A stretch of DNA of 59,474 nucleotides from a virus. Each line of letters opens with the position of its first letter. The first letter of the stretch is position 1. The translations under genes and the position numbers were made by a program. The stretch is from the IMG/VR virus record IMGVR_UViG_3300001352_002199, positions 1 through 59,474 of that record; one strand, given 5' to 3'. The notes below the pieces were generated by a model. It ran no database searches. It worked only from the letters and a program-made list of their open reading frames with translations, and was not told the origin of the DNA. This document shows, piece after piece, positions 1 through 51,199 of this stretch.

Positions 1-904
1 AATTTACACTTGGAAACCAATTTAATTCGTTTTGAATTTTAGTATTATCAATTGCATAACGCCAATCGTGACCTAATCTATCTTTTACGAATTCTATTTG
101 ATCTTCATCTTTATCTAGTAGTTTTAGAATAGTTTTAACAATATCTATATTGCGTACTTCATTTTTGCCACCGATATTGTAAACTTGACCAATTTTCCCA
201 CCATGTAATACTGCATCGATACCAGAGCAATGATCTGAAACATGAATCCAGTCACGAATATTTCTACCATCACCATAAACAGGAAGTTTTTTGCCTGCCT
301 TAGCATTTTTAATCATTAATGGAATTAATTTTTCTTCGTGTTGATTTGGTCCGTAATTGTTTGAACAGCGAGTAATTAAAATAGGGTAATCGAAAGTCTC
401 ATAAAAACTGCGACATAATAAATCTGCACTCGCCTTGCTTGCTGAATAAGGGCTATTTGCTTGCAATGGAGTGTTTTCGGTAAAAGCATCATCTTCTTCA
501 CTTAAACTGCCATATACCTCGTCTGTGGACACTTGAAGGTATCTCTCGATACTAGAGCAATCGTGAAGCAAACTTAATAAAGAATGTGTTCCATTTATAT
601 TGGTTTTAATGAAGGGCGTTGAATTATTTATACTATTATCAACATGACTTTCAGCTGCGAAATTAACAATATAATTTATGTCATTCTTTTGTATTAAATT
701 ACGAATACTATCTGTATCATTAATATCACAAATTGATAAACTGTATCTGCCCGATTGATCTATCTCTTCGCTAATATTTTTATAGTTGGCCGCGTATGTT
801 TTCGAATCAACATTGTGAATGTGATAATCATATTTATGGAAAATATGTTTAATAAAGTTAGACCCAATAAAGCCTAATCCACCTGTGACTAATACACTTT
901 TCAT
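1..904 (-). CDS. rfbB: dTDP-glucose 4,6-dehydratase, cut by the window edge
   Basis: Reading from ATG at 904 toward base 1 gives an open frame of about 301 codons with no stop before the edge, so the C-terminus is missing. The N-terminus has the extended-SDR nucleotide-binding motif GGLGFIGSNF. Further on are STDEVYGSL, the catalytic YSASK and RCSNNYGP, which together are diagnostic of RmlB/RfbB. The family converts dTDP-glucose to dTDP-4-keto-6-deoxyglucose, the entry to rhamnose and related deoxysugars, in the cytoplasm. The ATG overlaps the TGA of the upstream gene (ATGA), so translation is probably coupled. It heads a sugar-modification island and likely makes an activated sugar for the nearby glycosyltransferases. 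Confidence 0.95.
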   Translation of the reverse strand, partial: MKSVLVTGGLGFIGSNFIKHIFHKYDYHIHNVDSKTYAANYKNISEEIDQSGRYSLSICDINDTDSIRNLIQKNDINYIVNFAAESHVDNSINNSTPFIKTNINGTHSLLSLLHDCSSIERYLQVSTDEVYGSLSEEDDAFTENTPLQANSPYSASKASADLLCRSFYETFDYPILITRCSNNYGPNQHEEKLIPLMIKNAKAGKKLPVYGDGRNIRDWIHVSDHCSGIDAVLHGGKIGQVYNIGGKNEVRNIDIVKTILKLLDKDEDQIEFVKDRLGHDWRYAIDNTKIQNELNWFPSVN

Positions 905-1440
905 TCTACATTATAAATTTCCGTATTAGGCTTAGGTATAAATTTTACACTATCATTTACTATATGGTCATCCCATATGATCTTATTTGTTGGCTGCGAG
1001 GCAAAATTGCCCTCTTTTAATTTTATAAAATGAAATGGTTTATAAAACTTTGGGTCTTCTGCACGATCTGACCCATAAGGTTCTAGGGTAAACATATATT
1101 GACCATGATGAAATTCTTTATCTTTGTCAAAAAACTTACAATTCATATATTTGAGGTAATCGTATTCAATAACACTATTAGAATAGCTAAATGAGTCGTA
1201 AGTCATTAAGAATGATAAATCTCTTTGTGGAGCTTCCTTGAGCCAACAAAAGGCATGCAAGGGTAGCTTTGTATATACTGCACCATTTTCAATCATAGCT
1301 ACAAATGTCATAGCTTGATTTTTAATTGTATGAACGCCGAAAATTACACAATTTAAATGATAGGGTATATCTTCAGAGTTGGAGACGAATTCTCTCCTTA
1401 AAAAACATTTTATAGCTGGTGTATTATTGCAAAGCTCCAC
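901..1440 (-). CDS. hypothetical protein of the glycan island
   Basis: A 179-residue protein that I do not recognise. It is rich in aromatic residues, with no signal peptide, membrane segment or clear catalytic motif. The start is GTG at 1440: the only nearby ATG (1444) is out of frame, and the GTG lies exactly 8 bases after the GTGTAA box that recurs at other unit starts. It overlaps the dTDP-glucose dehydratase by four bases, so the two are probably co-translated. A role in sugar modification is suggested only by context. Confidence 0.75.
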   Translation of the reverse strand: MELCNNTPAIKCFLRREFVSNSEDIPYHLNCVIFGVHTIKNQAMTFVAMIENGAVYTKLPLHAFCWLKEAPQRDLSFLMTYDSFSYSNSVIEYDYLKYMNCKFFDKDKEFHHGQYMFTLEPYGSDRAEDPKFYKPFHFIKLKEGNFASQPTNKIIWDDHIVNDSVKFIPKPNTEIYNVE

Positions 1441-1448
1441 GCATTATA

Positions 1449-1454
1449 TTACAC
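1449..1454 (-). promoter_or_regulatory. GTGTAA box (putative phage promoter, leaderless)
   Basis: On the minus strand GTGTAA is followed by 8 bases and the GTG start at 1440. It lies right at the stop codon of the upstream gene, with no Shine-Dalgarno between box and start. It is one of eleven such boxes in the window. Confidence 0.55.
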
Positions 1455-2327
1455 TCAAATCACATATTTAGATAATGAATCTTTTAATGCTTCTTGAGCA
1501 GTTCTAATCGAAATATACTGTTCAATTTTTGATGTATCTAAAACACAATTTGAACGAGGAGCAGTAACTTCTTGCATGAAATTATCTAGCTTACTAAAGA
1601 ACTTAAACTCTTTATTTATCTTTAAATGCTCTTGCATTAATTCAACTACTTCTTTAGTAGTAACACTACCTTTATTTGTTATATTGTAGATGCCAAATGG
1701 GACATTTTGCTCGATTAAATCAATAGTATATTTTGCAAAATCAGTGCGATGAGAAAGAGAATTGCGCACATCTAATAATTGATCATAAGTCAATAATTTA
1801 GTTAAATAATTGCGAGGAGAAGCGAATTCATCAAATGGTATACGCAATCTAAAAATATAACTATTTGGCGCATTTTGCTTCACAATTTTTTCTGCAAGTG
1901 CTTTTGTGCCACTATAAAAACTACCATTTTGAAAATCAAAATTAGGGGCATCTTCTTCGGTGAAATCTTTAGAGTATCCGCCATAAATACAACCAGAAGA
2001 TATATGGGTGTATAAATAACCTTTATTTGCGCAAAGTTGCGAAAGCATTGCGGGAAATATTACATTGCCTTCAACTGTATCTGCTTTATTTAGTTCACAA
2101 GCATCCACATTTGGTTTACCAATATATCCCGCGCAATTAATTATAGAAACATTGTGGTGTGCAACTGTTTTTTTATAAGCATTATTTGATAGCCAATTAT
2201 CAAAAATTTTCATATTTGTATAATCAACTTTAGAACGACTGAGAGCCCAATAAGGTAAATCGCGTGACGTTAATTCTTTCATTATAGCTTGTGCTATATA
2301 TCCGTTTTTTCCTAGTATTATGTACAT
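1455..2327 (-). CDS. extended-SDR sugar reductase/epimerase (RmlD-like)
   Basis: A 290-residue extended short-chain dehydrogenase. The N-terminus MYIILGKNGYIAQA carries the GxxGxxA dinucleotide-binding motif. ISSGCIYGG and YSGTKALAE supply the Ser and the YxxxK pair. The length and the short N-terminal loop resemble dTDP-4-dehydrorhamnose reductase, which would act after the dTDP-glucose dehydratase encoded nearby. A different NDP-sugar epimerase or reductase is possible. The stop at 1455 touches the GTGTAA box of the next gene. Confidence 0.8.
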   Translation of the reverse strand: MYIILGKNGYIAQAIMKELTSRDLPYWALSRSKVDYTNMKIFDNWLSNNAYKKTVAHHNVSIINCAGYIGKPNVDACELNKADTVEGNVIFPAMLSQLCANKGYLYTHISSGCIYGGYSKDFTEEDAPNFDFQNGSFYSGTKALAEKIVKQNAPNSYIFRLRIPFDEFASPRNYLTKLLTYDQLLDVRNSLSHRTDFAKYTIDLIEQNVPFGIYNITNKGSVTTKEVVELMQEHLKINKEFKFFSKLDNFMQEVTAPRSNCVLDTSKIEQYISIRTAQEALKDSLSKYVI

Positions 2328-2335
2328 AAAATATT

Positions 2336-3049
2336 TTAAGCGTAGTGATGATTGCCGTATGAACCCCTTTGTTCAAATTTATCTCTTAGGTTTGGTTTGA
2401 TTTGAGGTATTACTTCATGTTTTAATAAACATAAATTCCATGTAGGTTGATCTCTAAAGGTAATGTCTGATTGAGTGTAAATTTCCCAAAAATTTGTAGT
2501 GACTTTTTTAACTAAGTCATTGGGAGTATAGCCAAAAATTGTGTTTTCAAAATATTGTTTGGCTGAAAGAGAAATTTCTGGAAATTCTTTTTTAAAAAAT
2601 AAAAGTGTTTTCGAGATGCTGTCTTTAGAATCTTTGCGACCCCAAATTATTAATTGGCATTCACGCTTAACTCCTTTATTGTGGCAAGTGGGATGTTTGT
2701 ATTGAAGAAAGGGATAAGGTTTAGATATAAAAGTATTTGATATAGATACCCAGTCAACATTACATTTTGGGTTCAAATGAACATCGCAATAATATATACA
2801 ATCATAATCTACACCCATAGAATCTAATAATTCCCAGCCCATAAATTTAGCATATCGAGACTTTCTTACATTGCAATTCAAGTTAGATATATTGGGATTA
2901 TTGGAAATATTGTGCACATCCCAATCTGTGTCGAAATCTTTTTGATCTCTGTCGCTAAATAAAAAGTAATCACAACCATCAACCCGTTGAAATCTAGCGG
3001 GATTGTTTCCACGTTTACCAAAAAGAGATGTAATAAATGCTATTTTCAT
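2336..3049 (-). CDS. DUF616-like putative glycosyltransferase
   Basis: A 237-residue protein starting MKIAFITSLFGKRG. RKSRYAKFMGWEL followed by YDCIYYCDVHL resembles the DUF616 (TOD1/MUCI70-type) family of predicted GT-A glycosyltransferases, where an acidic cluster after a short hydrophobic strand would bind metal and nucleotide sugar. It has no signal peptide. A Shine-Dalgarno-like GGAGA sits 6-7 bases before the ATG. It lies three bases after a sulfotransferase and before the reductase, so it is probably in the same operon. The family assignment is from memory of motifs. Confidence 0.6.
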   Translation of the reverse strand: MKIAFITSLFGKRGNNPARFQRVDGCDYFLFSDRDQKDFDTDWDVHNISNNPNISNLNCNVRKSRYAKFMGWELLDSMGVDYDCIYYCDVHLNPKCNVDWVSISNTFISKPYPFLQYKHPTCHNKGVKRECQLIIWGRKDSKDSISKTLLFFKKEFPEISLSAKQYFENTIFGYTPNDLVKKVTTNFWEIYTQSDITFRDQPTWNLCLLKHEVIPQIKPNLRDKFEQRGSYGNHHYA

Positions 3050-3051
3050 AT

Positions 3052-3630
3052 TTATTCTCCAAATTTATACCCGAAATACTCAATGTCTTTTGCATATTGT
3101 TCCGCAACGATTGCGCGAGTTTCGTCATCGTAGTATTCGGTGTAGTGTTTGTGTTTAGTGGTGTTTTCGTGTGAAAGTTCTTGTCTTGGAATTTCAATTA
3201 TATCACAAACCGTTTCAAAGTCTTCTTGTAAATTTTCAAATCGACCTATAAAATCTATATGTTTATCTATAAATTCAACTTGCTTGTTGACATGTCTTAT
3301 CTGCCAATTTTTTGGAGTTTTTAAGAATTCTAAAAAACTAATGTTTTTAAATTGCGGACCCCAATTATACTCACTTGCTACTTTGTCGAATGGGTTTCGC
3401 ACAAATGTAAAAGAAAAATATTTTTCTCTGAATGTTATGTCAAATTCTTCATGAAATGCATGACCTTTAATGCCAGAATCTAGATGATATTGATTTTGTA
3501 TATTTTGCGGAAGAAGCGATAATCTTTCGGGCCTTTTAATACCCTCAAGATTTAAGAGATGCTTCTCTATAGATGTTCCCGCGCATTTTGGAACATGAAT
3601 AAAGATGTATTTATAATTATGACTAATCAT
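3052..3630 (-). CDS. sulfotransferase (Sulfotransfer_2-like)
   Basis: A 192-residue protein with both PAPS-binding signatures: FIHVPKCAGTS at residues 10-20 (5'-phosphosulfate loop, Lys15) and FVRNPFDKVAS at 76-86 (3'-phosphate binding). These are typical of cytosolic or Golgi-type carbohydrate sulfotransferases, which move sulfate from PAPS to a hydroxyl or amino group. The acceptor cannot be told from sequence; the neighbours suggest a glycan. It is short for the family but has both binding halves. It overlaps the next upstream gene by 8 bases. It is one of five sulfotransferases in the window. Confidence 0.85.
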   Translation of the reverse strand: MISHNYKYIFIHVPKCAGTSIEKHLLNLEGIKRPERLSLLPQNIQNQYHLDSGIKGHAFHEEFDITFREKYFSFTFVRNPFDKVASEYNWGPQFKNISFLEFLKTPKNWQIRHVNKQVEFIDKHIDFIGRFENLQEDFETVCDIIEIPRQELSHENTTKHKHYTEYYDDETRAIVAEQYAKDIEYFGYKFGE

Positions 3631-3865
3631 GATTCTCTAAGTCCCAAAAATCGTTATAAAATTTCTTAGCGTTATACTCATGTAGTTTTTTGCTAATAAG
3701 TTTTCCTTTTTCATATGTGGATTCTAAGGTGTGTAAAATTTTTTTATATTTATCATCTTTGCGAGCAGAAAGCTCTTTGTAAACTTTTCGATGAAGCTCA
3801 CAGATAGTTCGCATTGGAGCCGTGCGATTATTTTTAATGTGTTGTTCTAAGTTGTCCTCACCCAT
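3623..3865 (-). CDS. small hypothetical protein
   Basis: An 80-residue, highly charged, probably helical protein (MGEDNLEQHIKNN..., many Lys and Glu) with no recognised domain. It overlaps the sulfotransferase by 8 bases and the following upstream gene by 8 bases, as expected for a translated member of a compact phage operon. Confidence 0.6.
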   Translation of the reverse strand: MGEDNLEQHIKNNRTAPMRTICELHRKVYKELSARKDDKYKKILHTLESTYEKGKLISKKLHEYNAKKFYNDFWDLENHD

Positions 3866-4073
3866 CTTTTACGCTTCCTTCATTATGCTTGTTTTTTTGA
3901 TACCAATCTTCTGATTTTGATGTTGCATGTTGTTCAAATTTACACAACATTTTCTTTGCCATATCAAACATTTCTTCAATCATTGGCAGAATATCATCGC
4001 TTTCATTCATTGTTTTAAGTTCAGAATGTATTTCCTTTAGCTCTTTTAAAATTGTTTTGTCGTCGTAATTCAT
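3858..4073 (-). CDS. small hypothetical protein, coiled-coil-like
   Basis: A 71-residue charged protein with a heptad-like N-terminal half (ILKELKEIHSELKTM). It has no recognised domain. An AGAGA sequence precedes the ATG. It overlaps the downstream 80-residue gene by 8 bases. Function unknown. Confidence 0.6.
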   Translation of the reverse strand: MNYDDKTILKELKEIHSELKTMNESDDILPMIEEMFDMAKKMLCKFEQHATSKSEDWYQKNKHNEGSVKDG

Positions 4074-4091
4074 TCTCTATATATTATATCC

Positions 4092-4914
<823 letters not shown>

Positions 4915-4918
4915 ATTT

Positions 4919-5476
4919 TTACTCTCCTATAGTTTGCGTTTCAGCGCACCATAATTTCATAGTGAAGCCTTTTTCTTGTAATTTTTTGACTAAATTATTA
5001 TGAAATTGTGTGCTAATATTTTTTAATTTACCCAAATGCCACTCTCCATATAGTGTGTTTATATAACCGTCAAACAAACCATCCTCTAGCATCTTGGGTA
5101 ATATATCATACTCTGACCCTTCGATGTCCATCTTGAGGATAATATAATCGTCTTTATTGAAGTTTTTAATAATGAAATCAGAAATATCAATACAATTCAC
5201 TTTAATTTTCTTAGAGTTAAACATTCCAGTAGTTTTATCCGATCTAAGTGTACTACTTAAATTTGCTCCAACACGAAAACTCGACTCGCCATAAAATGTA
5301 GAAACAGCATAATCGTAAATTTTAAAATCAGGGAATTTGGATTTATACTCTTCCACCATGCTAGGATTGCATTCAAAGCTATGTATTTCGTAATCTTTAG
5401 AATCAATAAATGATTTCAAAAATAAATCTACAGAACAACCATTATTGGCGCCGAGATCTATAAATATTTTTTTCAT
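4919..5476 (-). CDS. FkbM-family methyltransferase
   Basis: A 185-residue SAM-dependent methyltransferase. Motif I is IDLGANNGCS (residues 6-15), the acidic end of strand 2 is in HSFECNPSMV, and MDIEGSEYDIL is the FkbM hallmark. The family O-methylates sugars and polyketides. Between glycosyltransferases it probably methylates a glycan hydroxyl. It is somewhat shorter than the usual family but covers the whole core. The start overlaps no other gene and the spacing to neighbours is about 4-10 bases. Confidence 0.85.
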   Translation of the reverse strand: MKKIFIDLGANNGCSVDLFLKSFIDSKDYEIHSFECNPSMVEEYKSKFPDFKIYDYAVSTFYGESSFRVGANLSSTLRSDKTTGMFNSKKIKVNCIDISDFIIKNFNKDDYIILKMDIEGSEYDILPKMLEDGLFDGYINTLYGEWHLGKLKNISTQFHNNLVKKLQEKGFTMKLWCAETQTIGE

Positions 5477-5485
5477 AAATTTTGA

Positions 5486-6220
5486 TTATTTATGATAAAT
5501 ATAAAAACTTTCATCTTTAAAAGCATACCTCTTAAAAGGAGAAAAGATAGAACTATCTATTGGTATATTTTTAGTTTTAAGCATGATATTGAGCAGTAGA
5601 TTGTTGCAGTTTATTTTGGGACTCGAGCTGGAGACATCTTCCATTAAGTACACGTACTCCTTTAGGAAACTATGTATTAGTTCGATATAACCACCCCATA
5701 CTCCAGCATTTAATGGAGTTGTAGGGAGTTTTATGTATGAATTAATATCTAAATTAGAGGATGACTTAAGGGTTTGTAATTGAGTTCTATAGTGGTTATT
5801 AAAGAAATTAACCTCACTCGATGTTTCTTCGCAAATTTGAATTGTTTCTTTATCCATTTTTTGAATTGGGTTTTTTCGAATAAAAACATCACTAGCATCA
5901 GAAAACAAAATATGAGTAAAGTTTTTCGATAAATGAAAATTATCTAAATAGATTTTAAATCTATAATCATTATTTGATAAATTGGTGTTATTAGGAGAAA
6001 TGCGAACAAAATGAATGTTTCTATTGGATTTGGTAATATTACCTTCGATGTGATTCGATACACTGCCGTCGTGAAAAATAAAAAGATCGATGTCATTTTG
6101 AATACAACCAATCATTAAAGGGTAAAAAACACACTCAAAATTAGCTGGAAAACTAAAATTTCTCTGCGGGTCTAAACCGCAAGAAAGATATGTTGTAAAT
6201 ATACAAAGTTTATTGTTCAT
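5486..6220 (-). CDS. putative GT-A fold glycosyltransferase
   Basis: A 244-residue protein with FTHILFSDASDVFI (around residues 100-114), a metal-binding DxD-type strand, and TTPLNAGVWGGYI later, which resembles the acceptor-side LNAGV/NGG motif of GT-A transferases. It has no signal or membrane segment. It lies in the first glycan island between an FkbM methyltransferase and a DUF1796-like gene. Sugar and acceptor are unknown. Confidence 0.65.
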   Translation of the reverse strand: MNNKLCIFTTYLSCGLDPQRNFSFPANFECVFYPLMIGCIQNDIDLFIFHDGSVSNHIEGNITKSNRNIHFVRISPNNTNLSNNDYRFKIYLDNFHLSKNFTHILFSDASDVFIRKNPIQKMDKETIQICEETSSEVNFFNNHYRTQLQTLKSSSNLDINSYIKLPTTPLNAGVWGGYIELIHSFLKEYVYLMEDVSSSSPKINCNNLLLNIMLKTKNIPIDSSIFSPFKRYAFKDESFYIYHK

Positions 6221-6228
6221 TTATATAT

Positions 6229-6783
6229 TTATCTAATATGTAGGAATTTAATTGTTTTATTGCCATAATGTTTATAAATTGAGTTGATTATAGTGCTTTC
6301 ATTAAGTTTTGAGTATTTACTTGACTCCTTATACAAAAAAACAATGTCATCATACTTGATTGAGGTGTTTTTGAAGTTTTTAATTCTTTGTTCGTATCGT
6401 TGACGAAATTTATGAAAATTATTTCTAATATAGAATTCATCATCATTACGACCTTCAGAAAAGAGATGTGAGTGCCCTCCTCCTTCGTGGTTAAAGACTA
6501 TGCCTGCGTCATTTGTTATAGCGGTACCTCCAGGGCCCGCATTTGACCTATTGCCTGAAGCATTGCCCCATGCACAAACTCGCAAGCCTTTGAAGAAAGT
6601 TTCAAAATTATGCTCTAATAAATCTTCGACTGCAGAAGGAGGAGAAATGCAAAGATCAAAAGGGTGTGTTCGGTACCCATTAGATCTGCCTGTTTTATAT
6701 TGATTTTTGAGATTGATTCTAGGATCGCAGTTCCAACCTAATGAAATCCAATTTAAATGAGGGTAAATCTTTTCTGTGGTCAT
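6229..6783 (-). CDS. DUF1796-like putative papain-fold protein, second copy
   Basis: 184 residues. WISLGWNCDPRIN...GYRTHPFDLCISPP matches the DUF1796 signature (SLGxNC, then HPFDW-like), with Cys19 as the possible nucleophile. FNHEGGGHSHLF would carry the His. It is more divergent than the copy at 4228-4914, and the C-terminal half is short. Catalysis is not demonstrated. The upstream spacing to the GT2 gene is 18 bases. Confidence 0.6.
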   Translation of the reverse strand: MTTEKIYPHLNWISLGWNCDPRINLKNQYKTGRSNGYRTHPFDLCISPPSAVEDLLEHNFETFFKGLRVCAWGNASGNRSNAGPGGTAITNDAGIVFNHEGGGHSHLFSEGRNDDEFYIRNNFHKFRQRYEQRIKNFKNTSIKYDDIVFLYKESSKYSKLNESTIINSIYKHYGNKTIKFLHIR

Positions 6784-6801
6784 TTTTTTACAAGACTATT
6801 A

Positions 6802-7380
6802 TTAATATCCAACATGATAACATATTTCGTCAGTTATGGTATAATTATAACCTTGATTGATTAAGTTTTTAACAAATTCAAAATCCTCGCCACCCTCATT
6901 TTTAGGAAATAAAATTGGCTCTTTGGGAGTTTTAAAGGAAAAGGAAATGCCTACATTACCAAAACGAATTTGATTGTAGTTTGGTCGAGGTATAATTGTG
7001 TTATTTTTAGTACAATGCATTCGAAAAATGACAAGGTCAAATTGAGAATACTTAGATAAAAGTAAATCGACATAATTAGGGGTTATAGTGTCATCGTCAT
7101 CTAAAAAAGACGTCCAAGTTGTGTCGACATTTTGAAGGCCAATATTGCGTACAAGACCAGCTTCATTGTGAGGATACGAAGAGTCTGTGATTCTTCCTAA
7201 TTTTTCTGTTTGCAAAGTTGTGATCTTTTTACTTTGAAAATCTTCTGTGGGGTTTACTCCATCATATACAATGATCGATTTCCAGTTTGGGTTTGTTTGT
7301 GTGTGTAAAGAAGCTATGCTTCTACTTAATGTCGGGCGACCAATGCTAGGAATAATAAAAGTTGTACTCACTGCTGTCAT
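6802..7380 (-). CDS. family 2 glycosyltransferase
   Basis: 192 residues. The N-terminus STTFIIPSIGRPTLSRSIASLHTQTNPNW is the GT2 nucleotide-binding start. WTSFLDDDDTITPNYV (Asp94-97) is the metal-binding DxD region, and NEGGEDFEFV is the catalytic-base ED motif. It is a compact single-domain GT-A enzyme without membrane segments. The ATG overlaps the cupin gene stop (ATGA), so translation is probably coupled. Confidence 0.85.
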   Translation of the reverse strand: MTAVSTTFIIPSIGRPTLSRSIASLHTQTNPNWKSIIVYDGVNPTEDFQSKKITTLQTEKLGRITDSSYPHNEAGLVRNIGLQNVDTTWTSFLDDDDTITPNYVDLLLSKYSQFDLVIFRMHCTKNNTIIPRPNYNQIRFGNVGISFSFKTPKEPILFPKNEGGEDFEFVKNLINQGYNYTITDEICYHVGY

Positions 7381-7733
7381 GAACGCTCGTAATCGTCTTC
7401 AATTCTAACTATATCATCTTCTCCAAAATAAGTGCCTGTTTGAACTTCTATTAAAATCATATCTTCTGAATCGCTAGGGTTAGCCATTCGATGTTTATCT
7501 TCAAAACCAATTAATACAGTTTCTCCAACTTCATAATCTGTATCAATATCATTTAATGTAACACGAGCGACTCCTTGCACAACAGTCCATGCTTCTTGTC
7601 GATGATGGTGATATTGATAACTTAGCCTTTGTTGGGGCTTAACAACAATACGTTTAACTTTACAATACTCTGTGTCGAGTAAAATTTCATAATGTCCCCA
7701 AGGGCGAATTGATTCATCTTCTTGCTTATTCAT
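7377..7733 (-). CDS. cupin, type II mannose-6-phosphate isomerase domain
   Basis: 118 residues. RPWGHYEIL opens the domain. YQYHHHRQEAWTVVQG (His42-44, Glu47) supplies the metal ligands, and the end QTGTYFGEDDIVRIEDDY is the near-invariant tail of the ManC/RfbM C-terminal isomerase domain. Alone, this domain interconverts fructose-6-phosphate and mannose-6-phosphate, feeding GDP-mannose-type sugars. The pyrophosphorylase half is absent, as in other stand-alone phage and bacterial versions. Confidence 0.85.
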   Translation of the reverse strand: MNKQEDESIRPWGHYEILLDTEYCKVKRIVVKPQQRLSYQYHHHRQEAWTVVQGVARVTLNDIDTDYEVGETVLIGFEDKHRMANPSDSEDMILIEVQTGTYFGEDDIVRIEDDYERS

Positions 7734-8552: not shown

Positions 8553-8699
8553 TTAGCTGCTTTCAAGATGTTTTTTAACTAAATTTTTTATTTCAATTAC
8601 TTTTTCTTTATTATTTTCTTTGTATAACTTTAGGATAATAGAATTAACTAAAGCATTTACTCTTTCTTCCCAAGAATAATCTATTTCAAAACGATTCAT
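8553..8699 (-). CDS. 48-residue hypothetical protein
   Basis: A short frame from ATG 8699 to TAA 8553 (MNRFEIDYSWEERVNALVNS, then a Lys/Glu-rich helix ending KKHLESS). The ATG overlaps the TGA of the hibernation-factor-like gene upstream (ATGA), and there is no gap otherwise, which supports it as real. Function unknown. Confidence 0.6.
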   Translation of the reverse strand: MNRFEIDYSWEERVNALVNSIILKLYKENNKEKVIEIKNLVKKHLESS

Positions 8700-9031
8700 T
8701 TAAATATATTTAAGTGTCGTTTGAATTTTTCGATTCGTGATTTTCGGCGTAATACTCTATCCATTTTATCAAACAAAAAGTCGATAGATTTTAATATATC
8801 GTCACTAGCCGCAGAAACTACTGAAGATTTACCTTTGAAGCTTAGGTGACCTTTTGCGATAAATTCGTTTTTATGGGAGCGAGAATGAGCGTCCCGAATT
8901 AATTCGACCCTTAAGTCAATAATAGATTCTGAGCGGTCAAGCAATTTTTGGCATTTTTGCTTTAACATGGCGACATGTATGCGCTTTTTATTTATATGAA
9001 TAAACTCGATCTTTAAATCATCAATTTTCAT
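8696..9031 (-). CDS. HPF/RaiA-like ribosome-associated protein
   Basis: 111 residues. From about residue 30 the sequence follows the S30AE fold of bacterial hibernation-promoting factor: LDRSESIIDLRVELI, then a His/Lys-rich turn (AHSRSHKNEF), AKGHLSFKG, a Ser/Ala stretch SAASDDILKSIDFLFDKMDRVLRRK and a C-terminal KFKRH. In HPF the last segment is the (A)S-x-D-D-xYxAID-xxxDKLxRQLxK-x-K signature, here nearly intact. The family binds the 30S decoding centre and stalls or dimerises ribosomes. A phage copy could protect or silence host ribosomes. The assignment rests on motif likeness only. Confidence 0.7.
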   Translation of the reverse strand: MKIDDLKIEFIHINKKRIHVAMLKQKCQKLLDRSESIIDLRVELIRDAHSRSHKNEFIAKGHLSFKGKSSVVSAASDDILKSIDFLFDKMDRVLRRKSRIEKFKRHLNIFK

Positions 9032-9288
9032 TTTATTTTAATATATGGATTGACATCTCCATTTTGGAGTATTTTTTTATCTTCATAGGGAGCAACTAAT
9101 CTCCGATAAATCTCCATTTTAGCACATTCGATTGCGCCGATAATGTCGTTAGCAGTTTGATAGTTAAAATCGTTTTGTTCAATGTAGATATTGACCAATT
9201 GGTTTAGTGCGTAATTGAATTGACCTGCGGTCGTAATCAAGTTGTCTTGATCTACTCGTTTTTTTTCTGATGGCGGTATATAAGGCAT
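9028..9288 (-). CDS. conserved small phage protein (MPYIP family)
   Basis: 86 residues. MPYIPPSEKKRVD at the start, AGQFNYALNQLVNIYIEQ in the middle and AIECAKMEIYRRLVAPYEDKKILQNGDVN at the end match a small family found widely in tailed phages and prophages (I believe DUF6899; recalled, not searched). Function unknown. It overlaps its neighbours by one to four bases. Confidence 0.75.
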   Translation of the reverse strand: MPYIPPSEKKRVDQDNLITTAGQFNYALNQLVNIYIEQNDFNYQTANDIIGAIECAKMEIYRRLVAPYEDKKILQNGDVNPYIKIK

Positions 9289-9889: not shown

Positions 9890-10516
9890 ATGGCATTTAG
9901 AAGAAAAATATGTTGGTCATGTATGATGTTGTTTTGTGCAATATTAATGGTGGTTTGGGGTTTGACATCCTGTAATAAAGTGAATTTTGATGAATTAAAA
10001 AGCATTCCAACAATTGAAACTAAGGAAGATCAAAAGTATAGAGTTTACTATAGAAAAGATTTTGGTTTACGCTTTGGTCATCAAATAGGCAATAATTCTG
10101 TAAAAATAGATGTTCCCACTAACGTTCAAATTATGATGCTTGATGGAAGTTTTAGGGAAGTTGATTATTATTTCTTTAGAAAGTTTAATAATTGGTTTAA
10201 GGATGTCAAGTTTCAAAATGGAATTATGGCAATTAATCAAAATGAAACATTAGATTGCGATAACTTTGCAATGCTTTATAAGTCTTTAATGAGTGTCGCG
10301 AGTTACAAAAGTAAGATAGAACAAGAATTAGCTGTCGCTCTTGTTGTAGTCGAACAGAAAAATGAATTTGGGGGTATTCCTGGAACTGGAGGGCTTCATA
10401 TGTTGAATTTAATTTTCACAAGCAGAGCTTGGTATATATTTGAGCCGCAAACTGGGGAATATATAGAATTACAAAATTACCCAAACCAAAAATACATAAG
10501 AACGATAATTATTTAA
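9890..10516 (+). CDS. lipoprotein with transglutaminase/papain-like fold
   Basis: 208 residues. The N-terminus is a basic, hydrophobic signal ending in the lipobox LTSC (Cys28), so it is probably a lipidated envelope protein. The body has LDCDNFAML (Cys123), GGLHMLN (His170) and WYIFEPQTGEY (Glu185), in the order and context of a Cys-His-Asp/Glu triad of transglutaminase-like cysteine proteases. It may cut or crosslink envelope peptides. It is one of only three plus-strand genes and its end overlaps the HNH gene by 8 bases tail to tail. The family assignment is inferred from motif order. Confidence 0.65.
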   Translation: MAFRRKICWSCMMLFCAILMVVWGLTSCNKVNFDELKSIPTIETKEDQKYRVYYRKDFGLRFGHQIGNNSVKIDVPTNVQIMMLDGSFREVDYYFFRKFNNWFKDVKFQNGIMAINQNETLDCDNFAMLYKSLMSVASYKSKIEQELAVALVVVEQKNEFGGIPGTGGLHMLNLIFTSRAWYIFEPQTGEYIELQNYPNQKYIRTIII

Positions 10517-10943
10517 GCTTCCTTTTAGCCCAAGCTTTTTTCATTGCTTCACTTTGTTTTTTCTTGAATTCAGGAGAAGAGTGATTGGATGAGTTTTTAT
10601 TGCCTTTCATTGATTTTGAAATTTTATTTTTACTTTCTGTTGTATGGGGATGATTAAATATAGGAGGATTACTCTTGTGAGCTTTTGATATTTTAATACA
10701 ATGTTCTTTGGATTTCGACTTACCTTTATTGTTTAGCCCTCCGATTCTTGAACGTTCGCGAAAAATTTCTTCTTTACCTATTTGTTTCCTTAACCCTTTG
10801 TAAGCTAAATAATTTTCTATGTTTCCATGTTCTAAGTAAAGCTTAGCGTGAGCAATTGCATGCTCTTTAACTGAAAGGACAATAATATTATCTGGGTCAT
10901 CTGTGCCCCCCATGTGTTTTGGAATAATGTGATGTTTATGCAT
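10509..10943 (-). CDS. HNH homing endonuclease with NUMOD3-like tail
   Basis: 144 residues. HKHHIIPKHMGGTDDPDNIIVLSVKEHAIAHA at the very N-terminus is the HNH metal-finger core (His-His, Asn, His). The C-terminal half carries repeated NUMOD3-type DNA-binding elements (KGKSKSKEHCIKIS, ESKNKISKSMKG, SPEFKKKQSEAMKKAW). This is typical of mobile phage homing nucleases. It starts only 5 bases after the CCA end of tRNA-Thr. It may be a selfish gene inserted beside the tRNA. Confidence 0.9.
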   Translation of the reverse strand: MHKHHIIPKHMGGTDDPDNIIVLSVKEHAIAHAKLYLEHGNIENYLAYKGLRKQIGKEEIFRERSRIGGLNNKGKSKSKEHCIKISKAHKSNPPIFNHPHTTESKNKISKSMKGNKNSSNHSSPEFKKKQSEAMKKAWAKRKLK

Positions 10944-10948
10944 AAAAA

Positions 10949-11025
10949 TGGAGCCACCTGTCAGGATCGAACTGACGACCTACGCATTACAAGTGCGTCG
11001 CACTACCAACTGTGCTAAGGTGGCT
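10949..11025 (-). tRNA. tRNA-Thr (anticodon UGU)
   Basis: 77 bases on the minus strand. The acceptor stem AGCCACC/GGTGGCT is followed by an encoded CCA. There is a standard D arm, an anticodon stem ACGCA/TGCGT with loop CTTGTAA (anticodon TGT), and a T arm with TTCGATC. It reads ACA codons, which suit this A+T-rich genome. It is flanked on both sides by HNH endonuclease genes. Confidence 0.95.
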
Positions 11026-11039: not shown

Positions 11040-11624
11040 TCAAGAATCATTCATTTCAATTTGTTTTTTGTATTCAAGAACTTTTTCACATAAATTATAA
11101 AAGTCTTCTAGAAGTATTTCATTCTTCGCTTTATTTGCTTGAGGTGTAGCTATCTGTAAATTAGATAAATCATTTGTGCCGCCCAATTTAATTGGTATAA
11201 TGTGATCGAATTCATAAGTGTCACCTTTGTATAAATCAATAGATTGACCAGTTAAGTAACACTTTGGGTTTTTGCCTATTTTAGCTAAGACATCTTTAGA
11301 TGTATAATTACCTTCTGGTATATTGTTTACAATAGTTTTATTTCTTCTAGTAGTCCTTTTGAAGCTTCTGCACTTACTTATAATTGGTTTTGGTGTATGT
11401 TTGCTTTTAAAGCTATTTACTTTTTTCATGATTGCTTTTTCGGGTGTGTTTTTGTTTTTATGGTAAGAGTCCACTTTCAGTTTAGTAGACCCACCATTAC
11501 AATGATAACTAATTACTGATTTGGAGCAATTTAATGCAGATGCAATATCTCTGTAGGATAAGCCTTCTGCCCTTAATTTTAAAATATCTTCTTTAACTCT
11601 TCTATTGTTAGTTGCTCTATTCAT
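11040..11624 (-). CDS. HNH endonuclease with N-terminal helix-turn-helix
   Basis: 194 residues. Residues about 10-37 (VKEDILKLRAEGLSYRDIASALNCSKSVISYH) form a resolvase-like helix-turn-helix. The C-terminal part has YEFDHIIPIKLGGTNDLSNLQIATPQANKAK, a classical HNH core, preceded by CYLTGQSID. The middle is a basic linker. It is probably a homing or stand-alone nicking endonuclease, unrelated in sequence to the HNH gene beyond the tRNA. The start overlaps the upstream gene by 8 bases. Confidence 0.9.
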   Translation of the reverse strand: MNRATNNRRVKEDILKLRAEGLSYRDIASALNCSKSVISYHCNGGSTKLKVDSYHKNKNTPEKAIMKKVNSFKSKHTPKPIISKCRSFKRTTRRNKTIVNNIPEGNYTSKDVLAKIGKNPKCYLTGQSIDLYKGDTYEFDHIIPIKLGGTNDLSNLQIATPQANKAKNEILLEDFYNLCEKVLEYKKQIEMNDS

Positions 11625-12239: not shown

Positions 12240-12788
12240 TTATATTTGATTGTTAAATTCTTTTTCTGCTTCCTCGTAAGCGGTATTGATACAACCCATT
12301 ATATTGGAACGTATTCTATGAAGAGTAGCACTAACTGAACCAATTGGTCTACCGAGACATAAACTAATTTCTTTCATACTTAAATCCCTCTTAAATCTTA
12401 ACTCAGCGATTTTACGCATGTGTTGAGGTAGCTTGTTATAACATTTATTTAAGGCGTTCATTCGTATTTGAGGGGTATCATAATCTATAGATTCAGAAGC
12501 TAAAACTTCAGTCAATTCATTAGATAAACAAATTTTACTTCTGGCATGCTTAGTTTTATGAGCCATAACTTGAAATTTAGCTACACCAAAAGACCAATTC
12601 CTAAAAGACCCTAATCCAGCATCGAAGGATTTTTGTTTTTGAAATAATATTAAATTTGTTTTTTGTAAAACATCTTCAGCATCTTGCTTGTGAGGCAATA
12701 AACTAAATATGAATTTGTATAATGATAGCTGAGTATCTTTGAGTAATTCTTCAAAACTTACTTCAATATCTAATGAGCTCTTGTTCAT
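12240..12788 (-). CDS. ECF-like sigma-70 factor, Rhodopirellula/Verrucomicrobium type
   Basis: 182 residues. Region 2 is recognisable in LSLYKFIFSLLPHKQDAEDVLQKTNLILFQK (core RNA polymerase binding), then FRNWSFGVAKFQVMAHK (region 2.3/2.4). Region 4 is LPQHMRKIAELRFKRDLSMKEISLCLGRPIGSVSATLHRIRSNIMGCI (helix-turn-helix for -35 contact). The pattern LP...DAEDVLQxTN...FQVxAH...R...CI is that of the sigma family named for Rhodopirellula and Verrucomicrobium. It should redirect host RNA polymerase to phage genes. No anti-sigma gene is seen next to it. The family call is from memory. Confidence 0.85.
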   Translation of the reverse strand: MNKSSLDIEVSFEELLKDTQLSLYKFIFSLLPHKQDAEDVLQKTNLILFQKQKSFDAGLGSFRNWSFGVAKFQVMAHKTKHARSKICLSNELTEVLASESIDYDTPQIRMNALNKCYNKLPQHMRKIAELRFKRDLSMKEISLCLGRPIGSVSATLHRIRSNIMGCINTAYEEAEKEFNNQI

Positions 12789-13751: not shown

Positions 13752-13780
13752 AGTGTAAAGTATTTTGACTAAAATGTCAA
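13752..13780 (-). promoter_or_regulatory. sigma-70-type promoter, overlapping a divergent box
   Basis: TTGACA (13775-13780), 17 bases, TACACT (13752-13757) on the minus strand, firing toward 13726. Its -10 box occupies the same bases as the GTGTAA box of the divergent plus-strand gene. Confidence 0.7.
13753..13758 (+). promoter_or_regulatory. GTGTAA box (putative phage promoter)
   Basis: Plus-strand TATAGTGTAA. Candidate starts downstream are TTG at 13765 (6 bases) and ATG at 13774 (15 bases), so the spacing differs from the usual 8. Confidence 0.45.
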
Positions 13781-14388
13781 GAAAAATGATTTGCAAAAAA
13801 TACAAAGTAATCTTTATTCATATACCCAAAACTGCAGGAACATCAATAGAATATATGTTTGGATTCTTTGAGAAAGTAAATAATGGTAAAATTATCCTTA
13901 ATAAAAATATTGGAAGAACTCATTTAAGTATAAAAGAAATACAAGAACAATTTCCAGAATATTATAAAGATTTCTATAGATTTACAATCGTTCGGAATCC
14001 ATGGAGTAAGGCATTATCTATGTATAACATGCTTACTCATTCTAAGCATTACTCTATATCTTTTAAGGAATACATTAAAACTATTATTTTACCAAAATCA
14101 AAATTAAAAACATCCCTGCACAGAAGTCAGCTTTCGTTTATAACTATTAACGGTGAAATCAAAGTAGATTACATTATGAGATATGAAGAATTAGAAAAAG
14201 AATGGGTTTGCTTGTGTCAAAAAATACAAAAACCCTTTGAGACTATGGTAAATATGTTAAAGTTTAAAAACCCTACTGAAAGTATGGAGAGTGGATACGA
14301 TCAAGAAAACATAGATTTGATAGCAAAAATTTATAAAAAAGATATTGAATATTTTAATTACGATTTTCCCGCTAAAACAACATCTTAG
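13774..14388 (+). CDS. sulfotransferase (Sulfotransfer_2-like), plus strand
   Basis: About 204 residues. VIFIHIPKTAGTSIEYMFG near the N-terminus is the 5'-phosphosulfate loop, and FTIVRNPWSKALSMYNML is the 3'-phosphate motif. Possible starts are TTG 13765, ATG 13774 and ATG 13786; the last gives MICKKYK, like the MISHNYK start of the sulfotransferase at 3052-3630. It is the only sulfotransferase on this strand and its tail overlaps the opposing glycosyltransferase gene by 17 bases. The acceptor is unknown. The opposite orientation suggests separate acquisition. Confidence 0.85.
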   Translation: MSRKMICKKYKVIFIHIPKTAGTSIEYMFGFFEKVNNGKIILNKNIGRTHLSIKEIQEQFPEYYKDFYRFTIVRNPWSKALSMYNMLTHSKHYSISFKEYIKTIILPKSKLKTSLHRSQLSFITINGEIKVDYIMRYEELEKEWVCLCQKIQKPFETMVNMLKFKNPTESMESGYDQENIDLIAKIYKKDIEYFNYDFPAKTTS

Positions 14389-15094
14389 CTATAGAAGTTA
14401 AATCTTTTCTACCATGAACGAGCTTGATATAATCTTTGATAGAAGTTGGTAGTTTGTGAAAAGTATTGTGATAGCCTGAGTTGGCTAAATTTTGGTCATA
14501 GGTGCGACTAAGAGGGTGTTCGATGGTGTGATTAGAGTCACGTATAACAGGCATGCCGATCATGTGAGAAACCGCGCAAAATACTATATCCCATCCCCAA
14601 CCCATCTTATTATCTAAAAAACAATCTTCAAGGTCAAGGTATTTAAAATATTGAACGACTCTTGGATGAATAAACCAAACAGTTTCGTCGCCATTGACAA
14701 TATATTTAATGTTGGAATCTTGGGTAGTAACCATTTTCAAACTCGCAAGATCATCGCTTTGCCACTCTACATTATTTACTTTTGAATAATAAATACCAGC
14801 ATTATATTTTTGCATATAGTGCCGCGCATCTTGAACTAATTTAGGCCAGTCATGATATGATGTATCGCCCTGAACATGAAAAAAGACACTAGCTCCATCA
14901 TGAATGTCGAGAGCTTTTAAGAATTGATATGTAAAATAAGAATCTTCGCCAATATTATGCCAATACTCTCGATAGTTTTGCTCGTCGCTATTTATTACAT
15001 CGACACTATCAACGCATCCGTGTAGAGCTGATTCGATAGCTAGTGTAGAATCGAATTTATCGCGCCAATTAAATATAAAAGCCTGTATATTAAT
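14372..15094 (-). CDS. putative glycosyltransferase, probable AUU start
   Basis: The frame is open from 14372 back to the stop codon of the upstream gene at 15098-15100. The first ATG (14815) would discard about 93 residues that look fully coding (INIQAFIFNWRDKFDST, YWHNIGEDSYFTYQF, VFFHVQGDTSYHDW). There is no ATG, GTG or TTG in that stretch at the expected place; ATT at 15094, one codon after the upstream stop, is the best start, with ATA at 15088 next. The protein (about 240 residues) reads like a GT-A enzyme: VQGDTSYHDW, GDETVWFIHP and NKMGWGWD. Confidence 0.6.
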   Translation of the reverse strand: MNIQAFIFNWRDKFDSTLAIESALHGCVDSVDVINSDEQNYREYWHNIGEDSYFTYQFLKALDIHDGASVFFHVQGDTSYHDWPKLVQDARHYMQKYNAGIYYSKVNNVEWQSDDLASLKMVTTQDSNIKYIVNGDETVWFIHPRVVQYFKYLDLEDCFLDNKMGWGWDIVFCAVSHMIGMPVIRDSNHTIEHPLSRTYDQNLANSGYHNTFHKLPTSIKDYIKLVHGRKDLTSIAKMLF

Positions 15095-15097
15095 GTG

Positions 15098-15430
15098 TTA
15101 ATCCCAGTTTCCTTGAGCAACATTTCGACCGTCGAGATTGCTCCAGTCTACAGCAAATGGATCTTCGTCTTCGTTTTGTTGTTGATGTTCGTTGTTGAAT
15201 TCTTGTTTTTGTTCGTCATATAATTTTGAATGCATTCTTTGTCCCATCCATAAAGATTCAAGAAGTAAGGCTTGTACAGCTTGTAGGTTGTAACTCTCTT
15301 CGCGGCTACAACGATATGCTAATTTTAATACATTGCACAATGTGCGTTTTTCATCAAATGGTTCGGTCATGGCGACCTTCATTTGCTCGGCAAGTTCCTT
15401 GGTGAAGGGTTTTGGTTTGTATTCGCTCAT
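15098..15430 (-). CDS. hypothetical phage protein
   Basis: 110 residues with an acidic, Gln-rich C-terminus (EFNNEHQQQNEDEDPFAVDWSNLDG). The helical middle has LKLAYRCSREESYNLQAVQALLLESLWMGQRMH. No known domain. A GTGTAT box lies exactly 8 bases before the ATG. It is followed without a gap by the AUU-start gene. Confidence 0.6.
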   Translation of the reverse strand: MSEYKPKPFTKELAEQMKVAMTEPFDEKRTLCNVLKLAYRCSREESYNLQAVQALLLESLWMGQRMHSKLYDEQKQEFNNEHQQQNEDEDPFAVDWSNLDGRNVAQGNWD

Positions 15431-15438
15431 ATTGATAT

Positions 15439-15444
15439 ATACAC
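15439..15444 (-). promoter_or_regulatory. GTGTAT box (putative phage promoter, leaderless)
   Basis: TAAGTGTAT, exactly 8 bases, then ATG at 15430. A variant of the GTGTAA box; the upstream stop codon TAA is part of it. Confidence 0.5.
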
Positions 15445-16023
15445 TTAGCCAAAGGGAAATCCTATTTTTATAAACATATCGTAATCTTTGTTGTTAAAAT
15501 AAGGCCAATCGAACTTTTTGCAAATATGACGTATCATTTCTAAAAAATATATTGCTGGAGGATGGTATGGTTCAGTCGGTTTTTTTGGGTAGAAGTTTGT
15601 TAGTTCAAAATTTTCAAGGAGTGTGTCAATGGTTATTTCTACTTCTCTAGCTTGGTCCCTGCGCCTCATTCCTTCAAGGGTGACATCTAAATTGTTTACA
15701 TCTAGATAAAAATTAGTAATAGATACGCATTGAGCTTCTGGCAAAACAAGCGAACTTAATGCTTCAGTGTGATAGTCTGGAGAGCCTGTCTCGGTCATGT
15801 TTAGGTTTATAATATAATTACATGATTTTATGTACTCTATTGGGTTATAAGGGCATTTTATTTGTGAATTTAATTTCTTAGCAAGAGGGTAATTTCTTGC
15901 ATCTAAAAAACCAGAGTATCCATCAGAAAAAGAAACCCAATAACATTCTGCGTCAGGTAATAAGTATTTTATGTAAAACGATAATGTTTCAAGGTGACAG
16001 TGTCCTATTGTTGCTATTTTCAT
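15445..16023 (-). CDS. possible WcbI-like polysaccharide protein
   Basis: 192 residues. MKIATIGHCHLETLSFYIKYLLP resembles the start of WcbI-type capsule proteins (IGxCQ/H followed by a hydrophobic helix), and PTEPYHPPAIYFLEMI could be the Pro-rich IxPxIxF element. The likeness is weak and a plain SGNH-like fold is an alternative. It sits between a glycosyltransferase and a small phage gene and overlaps the glycosyltransferase by four bases. Confidence 0.45.
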   Translation of the reverse strand: MKIATIGHCHLETLSFYIKYLLPDAECYWVSFSDGYSGFLDARNYPLAKKLNSQIKCPYNPIEYIKSCNYIINLNMTETGSPDYHTEALSSLVLPEAQCVSITNFYLDVNNLDVTLEGMRRRDQAREVEITIDTLLENFELTNFYPKKPTEPYHPPAIYFLEMIRHICKKFDWPYFNNKDYDMFIKIGFPFG

Positions 16024-16706
16024 TGTTGGGAGAATGTCTGATATTGCTTTACTATATCTAGTCTGCTAAATTTTCTGTCGACACCTCTTTCATAACAACC
16101 TCCGTCATAGTGAACTAGAGGTGTGTCATTGAGGAAATCAGCTTCAATATTTGAACAATATTTTTTGTTGTGTTCATCTAATTTTAGAGAAAAGCATTTC
16201 GTATACTTAATTATAATATTCATGTCATTACAACTACCTCTTTTAGGACCCTCCTGGAACGGCTGATTGTTGAATTGTAAAATTGCTTGCTCAATATCCA
16301 TCACCCCTTCCTTGCCAAGATAAACAACTGCTCGTTCTCTGCAAAAATAACTATTTTCTTTTGCAAAATTTAGAATATTTGGTGTGAATCCGTAATTCAT
16401 TACATCATAGTCTGCATATAATGTTGCACCATGTTCACGAACATATTGACAATATGCAAGCAAACGACAATAACAACTGCGATGATATTTCCACATTGAT
16501 GAATGTATTGTTTTATAGAAATTAGCATCAGGATTATCCAAATCAAGTTCATGAAACAATTCGTTACGTTTAGAATATTCTTCGTTTAATACGATTGGAT
16601 TCCATCCATGTTTAATCCATGATTGTTTGTATAGCTCAATTAACTCTTCGCTTTGTTTAGAAAAGTCAAGGTTTGGTATTGATTGGAAATATGATATTGT
16701 GTTCAT
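16020..16706 (-). CDS. putative GT-A glycosyltransferase
   Basis: 228 residues from ATG 16706 (MNTISYFQSIPNLDF). This start leaves a 2-base gap to the upstream gene, whereas the longer form would overlap it by 28. GATLYADYDVMNYG is a DxD metal-binding strand. The N-terminal LYKQSWIKHGWNPIVLNEEY fits the GT32-like/DXD family entry. DTPLVHYDGGCYERG is near the C-terminus. The substrate is unknown. Confidence 0.65.
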   Translation of the reverse strand: MNTISYFQSIPNLDFSKQSEELIELYKQSWIKHGWNPIVLNEEYSKRNELFHELDLDNPDANFYKTIHSSMWKYHRSCYCRLLAYCQYVREHGATLYADYDVMNYGFTPNILNFAKENSYFCRERAVVYLGKEGVMDIEQAILQFNNQPFQEGPKRGSCNDMNIIIKYTKCFSLKLDEHNKKYCSNIEADFLNDTPLVHYDGGCYERGVDRKFSRLDIVKQYQTFSQQ

Positions 16707-16708
16707 TG

Positions 16709-17383
16709 TTATTTTGTTAAATTTGAGCACAACCAAAATTCAGCAAGCATTCTTTTTGAATGATTCGTAAACATAGGTCGTGTTCTCTCAGATTGATTTA
16801 GTGCTCTGTAATCATAATACCTCTCTTTACTTGCATGAAATTCAGTGTATGATTTCAAAGTTTTGATATAATTTGAATTTGCCCACCAAAAATTTCCCGA
16901 ATAATGAGGTAGTGGTTTTTCCTGAAAGTCTATTCCGTCAGTTTCTTTTTTGTTTAAATTTTGCAAACAAATTTCGTGATTATCTATTAAATATTCGTGC
17001 ATACGATTTGTCCATTGCTTTGCAAATTCAGTTGTACACAAAGGATTTGTTTTCCTTCTTTCATCATCATACGATGCACCTTTACTATGTATATAGAGAA
17101 TCTTAGAATTAGGATTATTCTGAGAATGTTTATGCATTAAATCTAAAGTACAACCCTCACCAGTTGCATCTGAAGATTTAGTGAAAATAATTTTTTTGTC
17201 TTGTTTGAATTTATTCGATAATAATTTCAGGAAATCTTCTTTTTTATCTCCAACTAAATTGCAATAAATATTAGATGTTTTTTGGTATAAACCACTGTCA
17301 ATTATTCTATTTAAAGTATTAAGAAACAATTCGTATGAATGATTTACGCAATATAGATGATAGAATATATAAATTTTATTCAT
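16709..17383 (-). CDS. putative glycosyltransferase-like protein
   Basis: 224 residues. MNKIYIFYHLYCVNHSYELF at the start, ILYIHSKGASY (around residues 94-104) and HYSGNFWWANSNYIKTL match a family of short cell-surface or LPS glycosyltransferase-like proteins seen in cyanobacteria and phages. There is no canonical DxD; the HSKG and HYSGNFWW motifs take that place. Neighbouring glycosyltransferases on both sides support a glycan role. Confidence 0.65.
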   Translation of the reverse strand: MNKIYIFYHLYCVNHSYELFLNTLNRIIDSGLYQKTSNIYCNLVGDKKEDFLKLLSNKFKQDKKIIFTKSSDATGEGCTLDLMHKHSQNNPNSKILYIHSKGASYDDERRKTNPLCTTEFAKQWTNRMHEYLIDNHEICLQNLNKKETDGIDFQEKPLPHYSGNFWWANSNYIKTLKSYTEFHASKERYYDYRALNQSERTRPMFTNHSKRMLAEFWLCSNLTK

Positions 17384-17386
17384 AAT

Positions 17387-18523
17387 TTATTTCCAAATTG
17401 AATTCAATGCATTTTCTAAATCAGAAATTTTGATAAAAGTTTTATCAAATTTAGAATCGTCTGTATATAAAATATGATTGTAATTTAAATACAATCCGTG
17501 CATTACATTATGGTAACCGTTAAAAGGTCGTTGCACACTCCCGCATTCAACACTTGGTACGAATTCTAAAATCTTGACTTTATTTAAATCAGAGTATATC
17601 ATATTGATCAATCCAGTTCCGTGAGGACCGATAATGGTATGAGCATTACTAAAAATCTCGATTTGCTTTGCTATTGATAATGTTTCTTGATTGCCGTTTT
17701 GTCCCGAAAATATTTTTAGTTCACCTTGAATATTATATTTTTGCATCAATGTTTTGATTGTGTTGATCGCAGTTTGTTCATTATTTAAATCTAATACTCT
17801 ACGATTGGTAGTTCCGTGCCTTGTATAAAATATTACATCTTTAGGATTTCTTGATATTTTGCAGTTGGTTATCCATTTTTTAAAATACTGCATAAAGTTA
17901 TTGCCCATTATACATGGATGAACATCAGGAGTAGATACAATTAAGTTTCCTTTGATTTTTATCGTTTCTCCGATGTTTATCCAAACGATACGATTTAATA
18001 ATTTAGGATCAAGTTCTTTAAGCATATTTTGCTTAACTTTACTTTTTAACATTAATATTTTGTAATCTTCAGGAATCACCGAAAGAAACCATGTTAAGTA
18101 TGGTAAATTATCGTGTATAATATGACCATAATTGTTGTGCCACCATGTATGAAATCCTGCATAATCTCCTGTTAATTCTATAATTTTAGAGTTTTGTTTA
18201 ACTTCGTTTGTTTGGTAATCACTCCAAGGTATATTGACCATTGCGCCAAAAAAGTTTTTTCTTTCTGATTGTTCTGTTTTGAATGGATTAACCCAACCAT
18301 TGCCTTTTACGATTTGATGATCATTCCATGCACTTTGCAATACACTAGGTCCTCCGTTCCATATTGCATAATTGGCATTTTTATATAATGTTGTTGTTGT
18401 TGGAAAATCACGGTCAAGACCTATTTTAATACCTGCTTCAAGGTATTGTTGTGTGCATACATTGATAAACTGATTTTGTATATCAGGTTTCGCACTAAAA
18501 ATATTTGGCCATTTTATGCTCAC
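17387..18523 (-). CDS. GT61-family glycosyltransferase (DUF563-like)
   Basis: 378 residues with GTG start at 18523. The middle has WWHNNYGHIIHDNLPYL, the GT61 acceptor-domain motif, and the C-terminal half has NAHTIIGPHGTGLINMIYS, the donor-binding signature of EOGT/XylT-type enzymes. In bacteria such proteins add pentoses or GlcNAc to capsular or LPS glycans. It has no signal peptide. The TAA of the small frame before it abuts the GTG. Confidence 0.85.
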   Translation of the reverse strand: MSIKWPNIFSAKPDIQNQFINVCTQQYLEAGIKIGLDRDFPTTTTLYKNANYAIWNGGPSVLQSAWNDHQIVKGNGWVNPFKTEQSERKNFFGAMVNIPWSDYQTNEVKQNSKIIELTGDYAGFHTWWHNNYGHIIHDNLPYLTWFLSVIPEDYKILMLKSKVKQNMLKELDPKLLNRIVWINIGETIKIKGNLIVSTPDVHPCIMGNNFMQYFKKWITNCKISRNPKDVIFYTRHGTTNRRVLDLNNEQTAINTIKTLMQKYNIQGELKIFSGQNGNQETLSIAKQIEIFSNAHTIIGPHGTGLINMIYSDLNKVKILEFVPSVECGSVQRPFNGYHNVMHGLYLNYNHILYTDDSKFDKTFIKISDLENALNSIWK

Positions 18524-18610
18524 TTAGTAAATGCCATCAGTCCATGTTGCATCGTCTATACCATAACGTACTTTTCCGTTATTTTTATCTACGTGTGGTT
18601 TAATATTCAT
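18524..18610 (-). CDS. 28-codon frame, doubtful
   Basis: ATG 18610 to TAA 18524 reads MNIKPHVDKNNGKVRYGIDD and ends ATWTDGIY. The start overlaps the sulfotransferase end and the stop is directly joined to the GTG of the GT61 gene, so it could be a tiny coupled gene or the leftover of a deleted gene. No family recognised. Without it the stretch 18524-18599 would be an unexplained 76-base gap in an otherwise compact region. Confidence 0.3.
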   Translation of the reverse strand: MNIKPHVDKNNGKVRYGIDDATWTDGIY

Positions 18611-21510: not shown

Positions 21511-21764
21511 TTATTTAAACAATTGCAGTTTATATTATGTTTTGAATTATACTTTTTACACTTATTATATAGTCTTTCTTGTAAATAAAGTGGCCAAAAG
21601 AAATAAAAAGCGGCATCATCTTCGTTTCTTAAAGCATTACCCAGTTCTCGAGCATAAAGTTGCTCCCAGTTTCGGTCAACTAGCTTCAGTTTAGTATCTG
21701 AGGGTGTTAGTTGTTTGTGGGGCGTATTGCACCCAACCAATAAAAACAAAAACAAAAACCTCAC
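21507..21764 (-). CDS. small lipoprotein
   Basis: 85 residues with GTG start at 21764. MRFLFLFLLVGC is a short signal with lipobox LVGC, so the mature protein begins at Cys12. The rest is polar and ends CKKYNSKHNINCNCLNK with Cys residues that might pair. A GTGTAT box lies 8 bases upstream of the GTG. Function unknown; small phage lipoproteins can act in lysis or exclusion. Confidence 0.65.
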   Translation of the reverse strand: MRFLFLFLLVGCNTPHKQLTPSDTKLKLVDRNWEQLYARELGNALRNEDDAAFYFFWPLYLQERLYNKCKKYNSKHNINCNCLNK

Positions 21765-21772
21765 ACCATATT

Positions 21773-21778: not shown

Positions 21779-21780
21779 TA

Positions 21781-51186: not shown

Positions 51187-51199
51187 GATATTGATTGGG

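Follow-up and report, generated by a model that had tools for sequence, protein, structure and literature searches.

Bacterial HPF and RaiA bind the decoding centre of the small subunit of idle ribosomes. Mizuno et al. 2019 (PMC6375957) described HPFs encoded by phages of Cronobacter and E. coli as well as by uncultivated viruses and raised the possibility of competition with the factor of the host, and a later coliphage survey repeated the finding (PMC6969025), so hibernation factors encoded by phages are not new. In the phage collection searched here, 129 records matched E. coli HPF; most were Escherichia phages, and the gene was widespread in the Vequintavirinae. The one phage HPF assayed is that of rv5. 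When expressed in E. coli, it was present in the cell extract and not on the ribosomes after stringent salt washes, and the 100S particles were unchanged; growth phase, lost binding and the washes themselves were given by the authors as possible reasons for this negative result (PMC6375957).

The DNA analyzed here, referred to as the window, is the whole 59,474-base IMG/VR virus record IMGVR_UViG_3300001352_002199. The original prediction had placed an HPF/RaiA-like S30AE protein at positions 8696–9031, and an ORF coding for 111 amino acids was found on the minus strand exactly there. PF02482 (Ribosomal_S30AE) matched residues 23–97 of the 111-aa protein with an E-value of 9.3e-6 and 26.7 bits, above the curated cut-off of 23.7, and the phage S30EA family PHROG 8990 matched residues 16–107 with an E-value of 2.7e-5. 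Against the HPF/YfiA equivalog model TIGR00741 the protein scored 19.5 bits, below the curated cut-off of 40.9, and on its sequence it is not filed as a TIGR00741 equivalog; the agreement of beta strand 1 with the profile was poor. A profile built only from four bacterial HPF/RaiA sequences gave the 111-aa protein 25.1 bits, and none of 20,000 shuffled versions of it exceeded 13.0 bits. Two of the four, the 8rd8 (Psychrobacter RaiA) and 9sda chains of the PDB, were taken from profile-search alignments, and the other two were E. coli HPF and YfiA. The 111-aa protein is basic (pI 10.1) and consists of the N-terminal-type domain only; the C-terminal dimerization domain of long-form HPF is absent, and the protein should therefore not form 100S dimers by itself. 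Taken with the fold and contacts described below, the predicted HPF/RaiA-like identity is supported, and the protein almost certainly belongs to the S30AE family.

The structure of the 111-aa protein was modeled by AlphaFold2, the input consisting of this protein and a single viral homologue (see below). The best model had a mean pLDDT of 84.7 and a pTM of 0.74, and its elements (E7–11, H17–33, E37–46, E57–65, E68–76, H79–110) reproduce exactly the β-α-β-β-β-α order foreseen for an S30AE fold. As the five models spread widely, with mean pLDDT values from 84.7 to 45.4, the fold call is based on the best model and the sequence evidence combined. Thus, a PF02482 match and the fold were both found, the joint lack of which had been named beforehand as the outcome that would speak against the assignment. 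When the model was compared with the PDB by Foldseek, ranks 1–38 were all HPF, RaiA, protein Y or chloroplast pY, the best being chain D of 8rd8, Psychrobacter RaiA on the ribosome (E-value 3.3e-9, TM 0.80 and 0.84). Among predicted viral proteins, the named top matches were the S30AE proteins of Cronobacter phage GAP32 and Escherichia phage PBECO4. The first non-HPF match in the PDB, at rank 39, was T7 Gp1.2, a dGTPase inhibitor (E-value 5.7e-3, TM 0.51–0.64). This match, and the failure to find rv5 HPF on ribosomes, would fit an S30AE fold that now serves to bind a target other than the ribosome, a change of role sometimes seen in small phage inhibitors. However, the sequence similarity is specific to HPF/RaiA and the rRNA-contact residues, which a repurposed fold would not need, are kept, and we consider such a repurposing highly unlikely.

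In Francisella RaiA, Lys23, Lys26, His29 and Asp75 touch the rRNA backbone, Arg83 and Lys87 touch rRNA at the P site, and Lys86 is a further backbone site (PMC13122176). The 9sda chain fits the residue numbers of that report position by position and was therefore used as Francisella RaiA. In the alignment, K26, K29, D84, R92, R95 and R96 of the 111-aa protein correspond to Francisella K23, K26, D75, R83, K86 and K87, so that what is kept are the charged helix 1 and helix 2 positions at which Francisella RaiA touches 16S rRNA. Three Francisella contacts are not kept: His29 is replaced by D32, Arg8 by I11 and Glu51 by K60. This combination bears on an idea proposed by Mizuno et al. 2019 (PMC6375957), according to which the phage protein would be an antagonist, sitting weakly or transiently at the HPF/RaiA site and blocking silencing by the host factor, so that phage proteins would still be made while the host is starved or mounts a defence. 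The tested rv5 protein was not retained on salt-washed ribosomes, and the 111-aa protein keeps the helix contacts while Arg8, His29 and Glu51 are altered; in addition, the loop joining strands 2 and 3 is longer and the C-terminal helix is basic. On the other hand, with the main rRNA contacts intact, the protein would be expected to truly occupy the site and to be inhibitory, and this phage has no known host factor. An antagonist is accordingly an unlikely reading, albeit one to be kept in mind. As family, predicted fold and contacts agree, binding to the 30S decoding centre is the likeliest activity of the 111-aa protein.

A search for further members of the family yielded one homologue, in the 68.5-kb related viral contig IMGVR_UViG_3300020185_004854 (G035). 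Its S30AE product of 127 amino acids is 43% identical to the 111-aa protein over 87 residues (E-value 2e-20), matches PF02482 with an E-value of 1.1e-12 and reaches 48.3 bits with TIGR00741, over the cut-off of 40.9. A profile of the two phage proteins found chain D of 8rd8 with an E-value of 1.8e-9, as well as many other solved HPF/RaiA chains. The contig belongs to the same lineage as the window (DnaE 63% identical), and its S30AE protein likewise has a basic tail, but the HPF gene lies in an unrelated neighbourhood with a MazE-like gene downstream. Because of this different neighbourhood, it is not the same insertion as that in the window. Direct searches of the viral contigs with the 111-aa protein, the G035 protein and their alignment gave no relative besides G035, a degenerate-motif scan of the same contigs returned four chance matches and no S30AE protein, and no relatives were found in the bacterial genome contigs searched. 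Several weak matches were rejected as chance: one in viral contig G003 (E-value 7.5e-4), which falls within a dNMP-kinase-like gene, one to gp334 of Bacillus phage G, annotated as a NUDIX hydrolase, and those in Gordonia and Microbacterium entries among the sequenced phages, the latter two groups all with E-values above 1.

The DnaE and DnaB proteins of the window have hundreds of relatives in viral contigs, with identities of up to 83% and 86%, respectively, and DnaE has only distant relatives in sequenced phages. PF02482 was present in one of 106 distinct related viral records, namely G035, and was not found in the other 105, most of the records being fragments, so the true frequency of the HPF gene may be higher. 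In the window, the gene is preceded by a DUF6899 gene (9028–9288, minus strand; PF21840, E-value 1.4e-23), the stop of which overlaps the HPF start by four bases (ATGA), and its own stop overlaps the start of a 48-aa ORF (8553–8699, minus strand), again as ATGA. The 48-aa ORF had no phage match in tblastn and no match in Pfam. Downstream follows a conserved 65-aa phage protein (8338–8535, minus strand). In related contig G024, the DUF6899 and 65-aa genes are adjacent and 23 bases apart, their products being 83% and 81% identical to those of the window, and the same arrangement with the same 23-base spacing was seen in the contig of loci L188 and L194 (82% and 68% identity). In the window, 492 bases separate these flanks, and the gap is filled by the HPF gene and the 48-aa ORF. 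In the nearest relative, G001, the DUF6899 flank is 83% identical to that of the window, and the slot holds an unrelated 123-aa ORF on the other strand (L182, 2641–3012, minus strand). The slot is thus empty in two relatives and occupied by an unrelated gene in a third, which makes the HPF gene an optional, variable cargo and marks a small hot spot for cargo between the two flanking genes.

Such a hypervariable slot, empty or otherwise filled in relatives, and the occurrence of the gene in a single one of the related records could also be expected of an acquired passenger gene without function. However, the reading frame is intact, the coding is compact with a start/stop overlap with the upstream gene, and the fold and contacts have been kept despite strong divergence from cellular HPFs; we regard a non-functional passenger as very improbable indeed.

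The window contains further genes of interest. Long runs of ORFs at 901–7380, 13765–22449 and 48191–56974, which by eye are glycosyltransferase-, sulphotransferase-, methyltransferase- and sugar reductase-like, seemingly form a large surface-glycan toolkit, and a cupin was identified by a profile match at 7377–7733. A UV-damage endonuclease UvdE homologue is located at 31986–33068 on the minus strand (PF03851, E-value 1.6e-11). An ECF-type sigma factor (12240–12788, minus strand) is closest to the Rhodopirellula/Verrucomicrobium family TIGR02989, with an E-value of 5.9e-33 and a score just under the cut-off; it may hint at a planctomycete or verrucomicrobium host.

The original prediction also listed a tmRNA and tRNAs and combined them with the HPF gene into a translation-control set. 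The tmRNA is real (34471–34869, minus strand; Rfam RF00023, 119.6 bits), although ARAGORN missed it in the window, and two tRNAs, Thr and Ser, are present. The tRNA-Thr gene (10949–11024) is flanked by HNH/homing-endonuclease-like genes at 10509–10943 and 11040–11624 (minus strand). Of 49 related viral contigs (relatives including L204–L223), 29 had a tmRNA scoring above the Rfam cut-off, and its tag, which ends in GNKSRVKAFAFKKRQLALAA in the window, is largely conserved among them, mostly in the form GNKxRxKAF...LALAA. The tmRNA therefore seems to belong to the core genes of the lineage, which is uncultivated, and this part of the proposed set holds lineage-wide. The HPF part does not, as the gene is a rare insertion that lies about 25 kb from the tmRNA in a different neighbourhood and was not found in 105 of 106 related records. 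As the HPF gene is rare, the translation strategy of the lineage does not depend on it, and it is linked to the tmRNA by association only. A lineage with a conserved tmRNA might occasionally add a ribosome-plugging protein and, with the coupled 48-aa protein, manage the host ribosomes, HPF parking idle ones and the phage tmRNA recycling stalled ones with a phage-specific degradation tag, but we hold this broader scenario to be very doubtful.

With regard to the 111-aa protein itself, we favor, with moderate confidence, the reading that it is a genuine short-form S30AE protein of the HPF/RaiA type, carried as accessory cargo, and that it most likely parks idle host ribosomes through the decoding centre of the small subunit. 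The analysis shows the family, the predicted fold, the kept rRNA contacts and the insertion into a variable slot, whereas ribosome binding, the timing of expression and a benefit to the phage are inferred. The gene would have entered the phage genome as an accessory, and its translation is probably coupled to that of the upstream DUF6899 gene. The protein is predicted to bind the small subunit of idle host ribosomes at the decoding centre, covering the A and P sites and the mRNA channel, and bound ribosomes would be kept inactive and shielded. During infection, the shielded ribosomes might stay usable or be withheld from host mRNA. Parking of host ribosomes, their protection and competition with the host factor had all been put forward as possible roles in the original prediction. 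Counting against such parking are the shortfall in TIGR00741, the poor strand 1, the loss of Arg8, His29 and Glu51, the negative result with rv5 and the rarity of the gene.

Compared with known systems, the HPF of the window is a divergent new example of an already known type of phage gene. Like the HPF of rv5 (V5) and other Vequintavirinae (PF02482 E-value 1.8e-12), it is of the short S30AE type, comes from a large tailed phage and is encoded among small hypothetical genes, but the two are only 15% identical in the multiple alignment, and the gene is common in Vequintavirinae and a rare insertion in the lineage of the window. The rv5 protein keeps five of the six contacts, with Ala at the Lys86 position (Thr in E. 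coli HPF), and the neighbouring Lys80 is also lost. The best match in sequenced phages was the S30AE protein of Serratia phage BF and the Erwinia SNUABM jumbo phages (Eneladusvirus), with 30% identity over 66% of the query and an E-value of 4e-3; unlike the 111-aa protein, the BF protein has lost two of the six contacts (K23 to E and R83 to A), and its tail is acidic. The best PDB match in both sequence and fold, RaiA of Psychrobacter urativorans (8rd8 chain D, ribosome-bound with Balon), resembles the 111-aa protein in the length of the loop that joins strands 2 and 3, but is 26% identical and, unlike this phage cargo, a stress protein of the cell. The gene of the window is thus a divergent and independently placed addition to the few phage hibernation factors, and the empty sites in relatives mark it as optional cargo. 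Owing to its kept rRNA contacts, the 111-aa protein offers, after the negative result with rv5, a second useful case in which to ask whether HPFs of phages act on ribosomes at all.
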